Positions 34,383-38,578 of a stretch of 64,000 nucleotides of DNA are shown piece by piece; the first letter of the stretch is position 1, and each line of letters starts with the position of its first letter. Source of the DNA: Acidobacteriaceae bacterium. Its GTDB lineage: Bacteria; Acidobacteriota; Terriglobia; Bryobacterales; Bryobacteraceae. The notes below the pieces were generated by a model, which worked only from the letters and a program-made list of their open reading frames with translations, searched no databases and had not been told where the DNA came from. The translations under genes and the position numbers were made by a program. The stretch is from the NCBI GenBank assembly GCA_019244055.1, contig JAFATG010000253.1:1-64000 (forward strand), given 5' to 3'.

Positions 34383-34520
34383 GTGCGAAGGAAGCAGCAG
34401 AAGTTCTTGGCGCCCGCTAGCACAAGTCGGTTGTTAAAGCATGGCAGTGATCTGCCGGAAATGGAAACAGCGACGCCTCCGGACTTGCGCGTCAGAACCG
34501 GATGACATCGTTTCGGGCGT

Positions 34521-34526
34521 TATAAT
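34521..34526 (+). promoter_or_regulatory. Consensus -10 box TATAAT ahead of the VOC-PP2C gene
   Basis: A perfect TATAAT at 34521-34526 lies eight bases before GTG 34534. No good -35 box is visible. If transcription starts about seven bases downstream, the mRNA would begin at or just before the GTG, a leaderless arrangement that supports 34534 over 34441 as start. Confidence 0.5.
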
Positions 34527-34533
34527 TCTGTGG

Positions 34534-35796
34534 GTGAGCGGTTCGCCTTCACCTCATCGAGCGCATCGGTGCAGTTTTCTACCGGGCCGGCAGGATCCCT
34601 ATCTCCGCCTCGGCACGGTTCCTGTTTTCGTTCGCGATCAGGAACGAAGCCTTCGGTTCTATCTGGAGCGGCTTGGGTTCCGTCTGGCCTTCGATATCCT
34701 GCTCCCATGCGGCAACCGGTGCTTAACTGTTAGCCCCCCGGATGGTACGGCAAGTCTCGCGCTGATCGCTCCAAACCCCAGCTCTGAAGAATTCAAGCTC
34801 ATTGGCCGCCCTACTCAGATCGCTTTCCTGACCGAGGATGTTTACGGCAAGTTCGAAGAATGGCGAAACCGGGGGGTCCGCTTTCATAATTCGCCGCAGG
34901 CGCAGCCTTCCGGCGAAATGTTCTCCACCTTCGAAGATGAGGATGGGAACTCGTTTATGCTTCTGAGCATTAACGAGCTGACTTTGGAACTCGAGGAGCA
35001 GCGGCGCGCTCATGCGGAGAGGCTGAATTCCGAACGCCGTGCTGCCGAGGAATTGGAAGCCGCGAGAGAGGTACAGGCGAGACTCTTTCCGCAAACGCAG
35101 CCACGCCTTGCGACCTTGGACTATGCAGGTCTTTGCATCCCGGCCCGCCATGTGGGCGGTGATTATTATGACTTTCTGGATTTAGGCCGTCGGCATCTCG
35201 GGCTGGTGACTGCCGACATTTCAGGAAAGGGGACTGCTGCGGCTCTTTTGATGGCCAATTTGCAGGCGTCTCTGCACAACCAGTGTGCGACTTACTGGAG
35301 CCGCCCCTACACGCCGTTCGCGTTGGAGCAGCCGCAACGGTTCCTGATCTCGGTAAATCGGCTTTTCCGCGAGAACACAACGAACAGTGCATACGCTACG
35401 CTCTTCTTTGCCGAATACGATGATGCGACGCGGCGGTTGCGCTACGCGAACTGTGGCCATCCTCCAGCGCTTCTGCTCCGGCGTAGTAGCGAGGTGGAAC
35501 GGCTCGATTCCACGTCCGCTGTTCTGGGGCTCTTCGAACAGTGGGATTGCGCCGCCGCAGAGCGTGAGTTACTCCCAGGCGACACTTTGGCGCTCTATAC
35601 CGATGGGGTAACGGAATCGTTCAACAGAGAGGACGAAGAATTCGGCGAACACCGCTTGATAGAAGCGCTGCAACAGCACCGCGAGCTGCCTTGTGAGAGC
35701 TTACTACGCTGCTTAGTTGATCACGTGAGGCAATTCAGTCCCAATGAGCAGCACGACGACATCACTCTGGTAGTTGCCCGCTGTACGGGAGATTAG
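34534..35796 (+). CDS. VOC (glyoxalase-like) domain fused to SpoIIE-type PP2C phosphatase
   Basis: Start taken at GTG 34534 (420 residues); an in-frame ATG at 34441 would add 31. The VOC domain reads LRLGTVPVFVRDQERSLRFYLERLGFRLAFDI, ... STFEDEDGNSFMLL; a coiled linker LELEEQRRAHAERLNSERRAAEELEAAREVQARLFP leads into a SpoIIE PP2C domain with the metal acids GGDYYDF, LVTADISGKGTAAALLMANL, YTDGVTE and HDDITLVV. RsbU-like proteins dephosphorylate anti-anti-sigma factors; here a small-molecule-binding VOC domain would replace the usual sensor. No kinase or STAS partner is nearby. Domain calls are solid; the signal is inferred. Confidence 0.88.
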   Translation: MSGSPSPHRAHRCSFLPGRQDPYLRLGTVPVFVRDQERSLRFYLERLGFRLAFDILLPCGNRCLTVSPPDGTASLALIAPNPSSEEFKLIGRPTQIAFLTEDVYGKFEEWRNRGVRFHNSPQAQPSGEMFSTFEDEDGNSFMLLSINELTLELEEQRRAHAERLNSERRAAEELEAAREVQARLFPQTQPRLATLDYAGLCIPARHVGGDYYDFLDLGRRHLGLVTADISGKGTAAALLMANLQASLHNQCATYWSRPYTPFALEQPQRFLISVNRLFRENTTNSAYATLFFAEYDDATRRLRYANCGHPPALLLRRSSEVERLDSTSAVLGLFEQWDCAAAERELLPGDTLALYTDGVTESFNREDEEFGEHRLIEALQQHRELPCESLLRCLVDHVRQFSPNEQHDDITLVVARCTGD

Positions 35797-35814
35797 CCGA
35801 TCTCAGGCCTGCTG

Positions 35815-35831
35815 CTACTACACTGTAGTAG
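35815..35831 (+). promoter_or_regulatory. Palindromic BlaI-type operator
   Basis: CTACTACACTGTAGTAG is a perfect 17-base palindrome around the C at 35823. It matches the TACTACA/TGTAGTA half-sites bound by BlaI/MecI repressors, and a further TAGTAG half-site is seen at 35846-35851. It lies 26 bases before the blaI-like ATG, so the operon is probably autoregulated. Confidence 0.8.
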
Positions 35832-35857
35832 AATAAAATAGGTGATAGTAGAGCCGT

Positions 35858-36265
35858 ATGGTCCAGCCAAGGCTAAGTAAGCTAGAACTTCAAATCCTGG
35901 AGGCTCTCTGGGCCAATGGGAAAGCATCCATTCGGGAGATCCAGGAGTCCTTTCCGGAGCCTCGCCCCGCTTACACAACCATCCAAACAACCGTGTACCG
36001 GATGGAAGGGAAGAACGTGGTACGCCGCGTCCGAAAAATCAGCAATGCCCATATTTTTGAGCCGGTCCTGGCGCGCGAGGTGACGCGGCACCGCGTGCTC
36101 GATGAAATTCTGAGTCTCTTCGGAGGGCGCGCCCAACCGATGATGGCACAGTTGGCTGAAGCCGGGAAGCTTACTCTCGACGATGTTCGCGAGTTGGAAA
36201 CAACTCTTAAAAAGCTCGAGTCGGAACGAAAGCGGAAAGGACGAGTGAGTCCAAATGACCGGTGA
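35858..36265 (+). CDS. BlaI/MecI/CopY-family transcriptional repressor
   Basis: 135 residues. Winged-helix N-terminus LSKLELQILEALWANGKASIREIQESFPEPRPAYTTIQTTVYRMEGKNVVRRVRK, then a helical dimerisation/cleavage region ILSLFGGRAQPMMAQLAEAGKLTLDDVRELE. In the family the linked M56 protease inactivates it by cleavage between the domains. The operator palindrome precedes it and the protease gene overlaps its 3' end (36255-36265). Confidence 0.9.
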   Translation: MVQPRLSKLELQILEALWANGKASIREIQESFPEPRPAYTTIQTTVYRMEGKNVVRRVRKISNAHIFEPVLAREVTRHRVLDEILSLFGGRAQPMMAQLAEAGKLTLDDVRELETTLKKLESERKRKGRVSPNDR

Positions 36266-38003
36266 ACTGATAAACCATGTTTGGCAATCGACGATCTTCG
36301 CGATTGTCGTCGGAGTGATAACTATCGCCTTTCGCAAGAATCGCGCCCGTGTTCGCTATTGGTTGTGGCTGAGCGCCTCCTTGAAATTCCTCTTACCGTT
36401 CTCCTTGCTAATGAGCCTCGGCAGCCGCTTCGAGTGGACTCCCGCGTCGGACGTGATGCTGGCGATTCCACCTGCCGCGCTCACGATCGCCCAAGCAACT
36501 CAGCCATTTCTCGAAACCTTATCGGTAGGGTCGCCCGCGCCAAGCGTTCGCGATTGGACCGCCATCGCGATCTTTGCAGTGTGGGCCTGTGGGTTCGCGG
36601 GCGTAATGCTGACACGCTTTCGCGAGTGGCGGCGTATTCGAGCCGCGGTACGCGCCAGCACTCGAATCGAAGGTCTAGGGACTCTGCAGGTTCGCTCTTC
36701 GCCAGGCCTGCTGGAACCGGGAGTCGTCGGGCTATTCCGCCCGATCCTTCTTCTGCCCGCCGATATCGCCGAACGCCTGCAACCACCTCAATTAAAGGCG
36801 GTGCTGGCGCACGAGCTGTGCCACGCGCGCCGGCGCGACAATCTGACTTCCGCTATTCACATGATTGTAGAGGCGCTCTTCTGGTTTCACCCACTGGTTT
36901 GGTGGATCGGTGCGCGCCTGATGGAGGAACGCGAACGAGCCTGCGACGAAGCCGTGTTGAGCTTCGGCAATGAGCCGCACGATTACGCCGAAGGAATTCT
37001 CAATATTTGTAAGAGCTATCTTGAGTCGCGACTATCTTGTGTCTCCGGAGTAACTGGGTCCAATCTCAAGAGACGAATCCAAACGATCCTGACTGGACGC
37101 GTCGCGCGCGACCTGAACGTTCCTAAGAAACTGGCCCTCGCGGCCATGGCGATAGCGGCCCTAGCCCTGCCCGTCACAGTTGGCGTAATCAATGCGCCCC
37201 GCATGCTGGCTCAATCGCAGTTGGCCACACTGAAATTCGAATCGGCCTCCATCAAACCCTGCAATGCCTTCCGCAAGGCAGGGGCCCAAGATTGGTCTCC
37301 CGCAACGATCTTTCAATCACAGTGCACGACGCTGCAGCGCTTCATCCAGCAAGCGTATGGTCTGTTCGCGAATGGCCATTGGAATCCCGGGTCGTCTCTC
37401 GCGGTCACTGGAGGGCCGGCCTGGACCAGGTCTGATCTTTACGAAATCAACGCCAAAGCGATGGTCCCGCAAAGCAGAGCAACGATGAATGGACCCATGC
37501 TGGAAGCGCTTCTCAAATCCAGGTTTCAGTTGGAGGTTCATCGCGAGAGCCGACAAGTCCCAGTCTATGCGTTGAGAGTCGCCGAGGGTGGCACCAAAAT
37601 GCAGCCATTTCAAGGGAGTTGCATTCCCAGGGACTTCGATAAACCACCGTCCGATGCGGATTGTGGAACGGTTCGAGGCTATGGCAACGGCTTTTACATG
37701 AAGGCTGCGACGCTGGCAGATCTTTGCGCGGGTTTCTCAGTCTTGCTGGATCGGCCCGTTGTCGACGAAACCGGAATTGCGGGAAGATTCAACATGCGCT
37801 TGGATATGTCCGAAGACCGCGAATCGCTAGACCGCCCTCGCTCGCTACCTGCGGTCAGTGATCCCGCCGCTTCCCCGCCTCCGCCCGTCTCTTTCGATGC
37901 AGCGAAAGCCGCCATGAAAAATCTCGGCCTGAACCTCGAGCCAACCACCGGGCCCGGCGAGTTCATCGTCATCGACCACGTCGAGAAACCTTCCGGGAGC
38001 TAG
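36255..38003 (+). CDS. BlaR1-like M56 metalloprotease fused to a TIGR03435 domain
   Basis: 582 residues. Four N-terminal membrane helices (residues 5-120, VWQSTIFAIVVGVITIAF, LKFLLPFSLLMSLG, WTAIAIFAVWACGFAGVML) around the zinc site HELCH (His186, Glu187, His190) with ARRRDNLTSAIHMIVEALFWFHPLVWWIGARLMEERERACDE; then the fifth helix (LALAAMAIAALALPVTVGVI) and a C-terminal extracytoplasmic TIGR03435 domain (SASIKPCNA, LQRFIQQAYG, LLKSRFQLEVHRE, LRVAEGGTKMQPF, TLADLCAGFSVLLDRPVVDETGIAGRFNMRLDM). TIGR03435 is characteristic of Solibacter-like acidobacteria and here replaces the usual penicillin sensor. It likely cleaves the BlaI repressor upon a signal sensed outside. Confidence 0.92.
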   Translation: MTGELINHVWQSTIFAIVVGVITIAFRKNRARVRYWLWLSASLKFLLPFSLLMSLGSRFEWTPASDVMLAIPPAALTIAQATQPFLETLSVGSPAPSVRDWTAIAIFAVWACGFAGVMLTRFREWRRIRAAVRASTRIEGLGTLQVRSSPGLLEPGVVGLFRPILLLPADIAERLQPPQLKAVLAHELCHARRRDNLTSAIHMIVEALFWFHPLVWWIGARLMEERERACDEAVLSFGNEPHDYAEGILNICKSYLESRLSCVSGVTGSNLKRRIQTILTGRVARDLNVPKKLALAAMAIAALALPVTVGVINAPRMLAQSQLATLKFESASIKPCNAFRKAGAQDWSPATIFQSQCTTLQRFIQQAYGLFANGHWNPGSSLAVTGGPAWTRSDLYEINAKAMVPQSRATMNGPMLEALLKSRFQLEVHRESRQVPVYALRVAEGGTKMQPFQGSCIPRDFDKPPSDADCGTVRGYGNGFYMKAATLADLCAGFSVLLDRPVVDETGIAGRFNMRLDMSEDRESLDRPRSLPAVSDPAASPPPPVSFDAAKAAMKNLGLNLEPTTGPGEFIVIDHVEKPSGS

Positions 38004-38005
38004 AG

Positions 38006-38578
38006 ATGAAACGAACAAATGCTCGATGGACGATTTTGTACGTTGCAACTCTTTTGGTTGCTGTGTTGCCGCATGCCGCTAAAGCTGCCGCCGTCCGCGC
38101 CCCCCTCCAGCCGCCGAATGCCCGCAGACCCGCTCCGAACTTTAGCCTCCTGGACGCATCGGGCAGAGCGAGCCGCCTTTCGGAGTATCGCGGCAAAGTA
38201 GTGGTGCTCAATTTCTGGGCATCCGAATGTGGCGGCTGTAGGCTGGAAATTCCGTCCTTTGTCGAATTGGATCAGGCTTACCAAGGCAACGGTGTAGTTG
38301 TGCTCGGAGTTTCAATGGACATCTCATATGAGAGCTTAAAAAACGCCCAGGAGGCCTGGACACGGGTGAGACCGTTCGTTCAATCGCATCGAATCAACTA
38401 CCCAATTTTGATGGGGGACGATGAAGTGACAAAGCTCTACGACATTCAAGCTTTGCCCGTAACTCATCTGATCGACGCGAGCGGCAGGATAGCCGCCACA
38501 TATGTCGGCATTGTGGACAAGAACGATGTAGAGGCGAATATCAAAACTCTCGTGAAAGAAACGTTAGTTAAACGTTAG
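38006..38578 (+). CDS. TlpA/ResA-type thioredoxin-like protein
   Basis: 190 residues, starting two bases after the M56 stop. Signal peptide (ILYVATLLVAVLPHAAKAAA). The thioredoxin-fold core is PAPNFSLLDASGRASRLSEYRGKVVVLNFWASECGGCRLEIP with redox Cys75/Cys78 (CGGC) and cis-Pro in ALPVTHLID. It probably reduces or isomerises periplasmic disulfides. Being the third gene of the BlaI/M56 operon, it may be the regulated output. Confidence 0.9.
   Translation: MKRTNARWTILYVATLLVAVLPHAAKAAAVRAPLQPPNARRPAPNFSLLDASGRASRLSEYRGKVVVLNFWASECGGCRLEIPSFVELDQAYQGNGVVVLGVSMDISYESLKNAQEAWTRVRPFVQSHRINYPILMGDDEVTKLYDIQALPVTHLIDASGRIAATYVGIVDKNDVEANIKTLVKETLVKR

Follow-up and report, generated by a model that had tools for sequence, protein, structure and literature searches.

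We analyzed a window of 64,000 nucleotides from a soil bacterium of the Acidobacteriaceae (contig JAFATG010000253.1, positions 1 to 64,000). In this window, three genes on the same strand follow a 17-bp palindrome and encode a BlaI-family repressor, an M56 protease fused to a DUF3738/TIGR03435 domain, and a TlpA-like protein with a CGGC active site. The features are as follows.

35815..35831, strand not assigned: candidate BlaI-type operator CTACTACACTGTAGTAG with a TACTA-N5-TAGTA core, proposed from the palindrome and its retention in relatives
35829..35834, plus strand: putative -10 element TAGAAT overlapping the operator, proposed from its position in the sequence and from the TTG[AC]-N16-17-TAGTA pattern of relatives
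35846..35851, plus strand: second TAGTAG half-site, 20 bp after the first, proposed from the TAGTA-N15-16-TAGTA pattern of upstream regions
35858..36265, plus strand: BlaI-family repressor, 135 aa (PF03965, E 1.2e-21)
36255..38003, plus strand: M56 protease with C-terminal DUF3738/TIGR03435 sensor, 582 aa (PF05569, 8.5e-35; PF12543, 7e-36; TIGR03435, 2.5e-42)
38006..38578, plus strand: TlpA/ResA-like exported thioredoxin-fold protein with a CGGC active site, 190 aa (PF00578, 8.5e-25; Redoxin; ResA structures 3c71 and 1st9, E 6e-17)

The original prediction had described a perfect 17-bp operator before a BlaI-like gene, a TIGR03435 domain replacing the penicillin-binding sensor of the protease, and a CGGC thioredoxin two bases after it, and all three descriptions were borne out. 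The palindrome consists of two inverted 8-bp arms flanking a single central base and lies exactly where it had been placed. BlaI scored 77.7 bits against PF03965 (cut-off, 22.6), as expected of a winged-helix BlaI/MecI repressor, and its nearest solved structures were 2g9w and the penicillinase repressor 1sd4. A copper repressor of the CopY/TcrY type was rejected (33.1 of 121.95 bits); the protein contains no cysteine at all and so no C-terminal CXC motif. The BlaI and M56 genes overlap by 11 nt. Within the protease, M56 occupies residues 11-278 and the sensor about residues 327-582, and the TIGR03435 model (Soli_TIGR03435) matched residues 327-580 with 145.2 bits (curated cut-off, 40), which places the domain in this family. 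Pfam and NCBIfam models gave no match to a penicillin-binding, transpeptidase, or beta-lactamase domain in the protease gene, and the blaR1_generic model reached 87 of 400 bits, below its cut-off.

Two bases separate the M56 stop codon from the ATG of the third gene. Its product, with the active-site motif NFWASECGGC and a PF00578 score of 87.5 bits (cut-off, 26), belongs to the TlpA-like/AhpC-TSA superfamily; NCBIfam ResA and TlpA memberships were rejected (90.7 of 170 and 55 of 230 bits). Like the ResA/TlpA oxidoreductases, it has a thioredoxin fold, a CxxC motif, and, as judged by eye, an exported N terminus; unlike them, it carries E rather than W before CGGC and falls below the NCBIfam cut-offs. 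Our scan found no plus-strand terminator-like site at the M56-TlpA junction. A Kdo hydroxylase gene (PF11004, 38606-39535) begins 27 nt past TlpA, and read-through into it is possible because no plus-strand terminator-like site lies between the two. In the orthologous locus of a genus mate (L214), the gene after TlpA is not a Kdo hydroxylase. On the other side, 61 nt separate BlaI from the end of a gene (34441-35796) whose product joins a glyoxalase domain to a SpoIIE phosphatase.

BlaR1-BlaI owes its reputation to antibiotic resistance, but its protease-repressor module has a much wider distribution. How closely does the protease of the window resemble BlaR1? A profile search of the PDB returned Staphylococcus aureus BlaR1 (8exs, E 5.5e-14), and Foldseek with the full-length model placed BlaR1 entries on top (8ext, E 1.2e-6; also 8exs and 8exp). 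DUF3738 begins directly past the last long helix (residues 289-321), the position of the sensor in BlaR1. Across an alignment of 61 M56-DUF3738 proteins, the histidines and glutamate of HExxH and the residues of ERxxxCD were invariant (61/61). These results support a BlaR1-like protease in which DUF3738 takes the place of the penicillin-binding sensor.

The window shares with the S. aureus systems BlaR1-BlaI and MecR1-MecI a BlaI-family repressor, an M56 zinc protease of matching fold, the adjacency of their genes, and a palindromic operator at the promoter. The systems differ in the sensor (DUF3738 in the window, a class-D beta-lactamase-like domain in S. aureus) and in the next gene (TlpA-like versus a beta-lactamase or PBP2a). 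They differ also in the repressor, since at the position aligned with the S. aureus BlaI cleavage site, which we take to be N-F, the window BlaI has Q-L and does not keep those residues. The operators are of different form as well, TACTA-N5-TAGTA in the window versus the TACA/TGTA form given for BlaR1-BlaI and MecR1-MecI in PMC7253601. Because neither the sensor nor the adjoining output corresponds, we place the locus outside the BlaR1-BlaI beta-lactam system, though it would work in the same manner and may have further targets elsewhere in the genome. Also related are two Clostridium thermocellum regulons, BlaI_0696 and BlaI_1845, which PMC8457756 describes as having an autoregulated BlaI with BlaR1 partners, inverted GTCTAT repeats five nucleotides apart, and an ordered array of sites accommodating as many as four protomers; on that description they differ from the window in half-site sequence, outputs, and host phylum.

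The palindrome is a candidate BlaI-type operator, and its sequence is conserved. In 100 dinucleotide shuffles of the window, no match to CTACTACACTGTAGTAG was found allowing up to 3 mismatches, and the exact 17-mer occurs a single time in the host genome (G000; 6,205,550 bases). The original prediction would have been undermined by the absence of the operator from relatives. An identical 17-mer precedes BlaI in the orthologous operon of a Bryobacteraceae metagenome-assembled genome (L084; JAICXK010000083.1), and the L214 ortholog, from genus mate G062, is preceded by the near-identical CTACTATTCAGTAGTAGAATAAAA, present there as CTACTATTCAGTAGTAG and then the same AATAAAA. A search of the 6.2-Mb host genome for the core TACTA-N5/6-TAGTA returned 3 places (the window, C369, and C125), versus 12 per strand for a backward-pattern control, and two of the three, those in the window and on C369, precede BlaI-M56-TlpA operons. 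The C369 site, ACTCTACTAATCGTGTAGTAGAGT, lies upstream of a second such operon in the host. The third, TACTA-N6-TAGTA at C125:2314 (L251), is located 22 nt before a minus-strand ORF that by eye resembles a response regulator, with no match to BlaI or M56 at the site. A more degenerate pattern, TACNACNNNGTNGTA, occurred at 4 places in the host versus 2 for its control, and no BlaI-like ORF was seen near the C307 occurrence (L021).

We then compared promoter regions. The sample comprised 89 distinct upstream regions from BlaI-M56 gene pairs, of which 80 had DUF3738; a BlaI ORF counted only if more than 100 nt preceded it and an M56 gene followed. TAGTAG or GTAGTA occurred within 80 nt in 68 of the 89 regions (shuffle mean, 6.0; maximum, 11), a count that is probably a lower bound owing to over-long BlaI ORF calls in some of the 21 regions with no half-site. 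TTG[AC]-N16-17-TAGTA was found in 54/89 (shuffle mean, 0.1), TAGTA-N15-16-TAGTA in 30/89 (0.02), and TACTA-N5-8-TAGTA in 19/89 (0.09), where the shuffles overstate independence because the 89 regions share descent. The 20-bp half-site spacing of the window is thus kept in relatives. With a -10 element TAGANT starting three bases into the half-site and a spacer of about 17 bp to TTGACA, the candidate operator of the relatives overlaps the predicted core promoter. At the window promoter, no TTGAC-like -35 element of the kind usual in relatives is recognizable, and GGCCTG stands at 35806-35811.

On the basis of these comparisons, we propose that the locus is an autoregulated repressor-protease switch working like BlaR1-BlaI, with TlpA as its output here, a reading to which we assign a probability of roughly 0.6 from sequence and structural models. 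BlaI dimers would bind both the palindrome, which shares bases with the -10 element, and the nearby half-site, blocking transcription of the three-gene operon. The M56 protease would span the inner membrane and expose DUF3738 to the periplasm, at the position of the penicillin-binding domain in BlaR1. A signal reaching DUF3738 there, which may be a redox, cell-wall, or beta-lactam cue, would activate the zinc protease, which would cleave BlaI, and with BlaI gone, the repressor, the protease, and TlpA would be made together. TlpA and ResA have general roles in thiol-disulfide handling, and the TlpA made in this way may then reduce or rearrange envelope disulfides. The earlier idea of a repressor-protease circuit controlling a disulfide enzyme fits the BlaR1-like protease and the conserved operator, whereas the pairing of TlpA with this sensor is confined to close relatives. 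Our open-access literature search found no report of a circuit combining BlaI, BlaR1, and TlpA.

Is TlpA a regular partner of this sensor? The window copy is a full match to the TIGR03435/DUF3738 family of Acidobacteriota in an M56 fusion and is set apart by the adjoining TlpA. We collected 134 fused M56-DUF3738 ORFs and reduced them by shared 7-mers to 107 non-redundant genes. BlaI lies upstream of 90; of the remaining 17, 4 come second in an M56 pair, 5 begin where a contig ends, and for 8 no BlaI was found. Tandem M56-DUF3738 genes occur at L056 and L064, the last copy having no BlaI of its own. Cultured acidobacteria that carry an M56-DUF3738 gene include Terriglobus roseus (L144) and Granulicella sp. 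S156 (L129 and L163). Next genes were counted with purpose-built HMMs on mechanical ORFs, and neighbors are undercounted because many contigs are short metagenome assemblies. TlpA was next in 2/107, both within the host genus, and was rejected as a general marker of DUF3738 operons; with so few cases, it is not a general partner of the sensor. The other next genes were an Oar-like outer-membrane barrel (12/107), a stand-alone DUF3738 (12/107), another M56 (13/107), a beta-lactamase-like PF00144 protein (3/107), or a different ORF of 150 aa or more (16/107); there was no recognized same-strand gene in 39/107 and a contig end in 10/107. Because the Oar HMM also picked up a number of M56 proteins at E 1e-3, it was applied to next genes only, at E 1e-5; the barrel was confirmed with Pfam in L020 only. 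The 25 best matches, in 20 of the 257 genomes of the order, had TlpA in the same two cases only, and several of these contigs end soon past M56. We read the repressor, protease, sensor, and operator as a module kept across Acidobacteriota while the third gene varies, TlpA being one of several exchangeable outputs.

One potential alternative is a switch that still responds to beta-lactams or to damage of the cell wall. DUF3738 would then recognize a product of peptidoglycan or the envelope, not the drug through acylation, and TlpA would serve as a general envelope-stress output. The PF00144 proteins, which directly adjoin M56-DUF3738 in L085 (7802-9595; Pfam run on this locus only), L088, and L091, keep a cell-wall signal in play and make the non-beta-lactam signal of the original prediction one candidate among several. 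Against it, PF00144 also includes esterases and peptidases, the window operon has no PF00144 gene, and the protease has no matched penicillin-binding domain. PMC8457756 does list a putative peptidoglycan gene in a C. thermocellum BlaI regulon. On balance, we consider this explanation rather unlikely, though the strongest of the alternatives, and favor the switch with TlpA as its output.

Within the genus, 7 of the 56 M56 places are followed by a Tlp-like gene: the window, L214, L019, L220, L206, L238, and L244 (six identified by the scan; the L220 Tlp ORF overlaps the M56 end). Only the window and L214 are of the DUF3738 type. L214 is an orthologous BlaI-M56-DUF3738-TlpA operon with a gap of 10 nt between M56 and TlpA, slightly weaker as a genus mate because G062 carries 8% contamination. 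In L019, L220, and L206, the Tlp-like gene follows a short M56 that has no DUF3738 and that in L019 and L220 is paired with BlaI (Pfam, run on L019 only, gave no further domain); in L206 (G073:C44), M56 has an in-frame TGA before the Tlp-like gene, and BlaI was not found. L238 and L244 are BlaI-M56-TonB_C-TlpA operons, and in L244, BlaI is preceded by two CTACA-N3-TGTAG boxes, related to but different from the window box. The Tlp proteins of L019, L220, L206, and L238 form one separate group in the tree (100/100), and no further Tlp match was found in 338 kb of 52 fetched loci. The co-conservation of TlpA that the original prediction called for is thus seen at the level of the genus and fails across M56-DUF3738 as a whole; likewise, its absence from other copies, named as grounds for refutation, is largely the case across the family and is not the case for the L214 ortholog. 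The host also carries a third BlaI-M56 pair (L018, 4552-6464, contig C1) whose C-terminal half looks like GWxTD by eye, and similar M56 proteins seem present in several genomes of the genus.

The history of the pairing can be read in two ways. In the closest M56 relative (L084/L219, 65%), the place of TlpA is taken by a protein of 434 aa that matched nothing in Pfam. In the M56 tree, the window pairs with L219/G074, which has no TlpA, and L214 falls outside (98/94 and 100/100), and the TlpA proteins of the window and L214 are only 46% identical. TlpA may have been ancestral to the window, L214, and G074 and lost in G074, or it may have been gained twice; this M56 grouping and the low TlpA identity make the two indistinguishable, and the TlpA tree, whose bootstrap had not settled, does not separate them.

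Could TlpA be an accidental neighbor of a circuit that regulates only itself, the next gene being whatever landed there? The widely variable next gene and the 39/107 loci with no recognized one would fit. The recurrence of Tlp-like genes at 7/56 places, next to three protease architectures and from more than one Tlp family, their absence elsewhere in the fetched loci, and the tight M56-TlpA spacing (two bases in the window, 10 nt in L214) make chance adjacency improbable and argue for TlpA as an output of the switch.

Modeled alone (window 37218-38000), the DUF3738 sensor gave a confident structure with a pLDDT of 89.6. Foldseek found no PDB match for this model (best E 1.6, probability 0.01), VIA-align returned only Z 3.4 (rmsd 3.9, 76 aligned) and Z 3.2 (rmsd 4.1, 74 aligned), and no PDB sequence matched (best E 0.38); the absence of a match to a predicted model does not establish that the fold is new. 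The two halves of the domain align in register (hhalign P 0.0034, probability 9.4, in a single comparison with no control), a weak hint of internal duplication. DUF3738 may be a pair of STN/secretin N0-type modules, which its strand-helix order resembles; STN was absent among the 25 families listed for 109 members and matched only 1 of 15 relatives, and the fold searches gave no match to such a domain. Our search of 5.39 million open-access papers found no mention of the TIGR03435/DUF3738 family and no function or structure for it.

In the 61 aligned sequences, the sensor cysteines C336 and C357 were both present in 15, both missing in 43, and single in 3, and C456 and C470 were both present in 26, both missing in 31, and single in 4. 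Because the cysteines come and go as pairs, the pattern is disulfide-like and consistent with a periplasmic location. A disulfide-state switch, in which the two pairs read periplasmic redox and the CGGC thiol-disulfide protein closes the loop, would explain this pairing, yet we rejected the cysteines as a sign of redox sensing and consider such a switch very improbable because TlpA is missing beside most copies that share these cysteines, 24/61 sensors are cysteine-free, and plain structural disulfides predict paired cysteines equally well. The BlaR1-like switch with TlpA as one output remains our preferred reading.

More broadly, and only tentatively, BlaI-M56-DUF3738 may represent a phylum-wide envelope-sensing cassette of Acidobacteriota with a conserved operator and exchangeable outputs. 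Its sensor would be a new fold with two disulfides in some clades, and this genus would have wired it to thiol-disulfide enzymes; the two host operons share an operator class and may cross-talk. The promoter-operator grammar (TTGAC-N16/17-TAGTAG, an inverted TACTA arm, and a direct repeat at 20-21 bp), together with the replaced sensor, makes target prediction possible. The same grammar and sensor swap offer a way to learn what DUF3738 detects, which would be the first function for this family.
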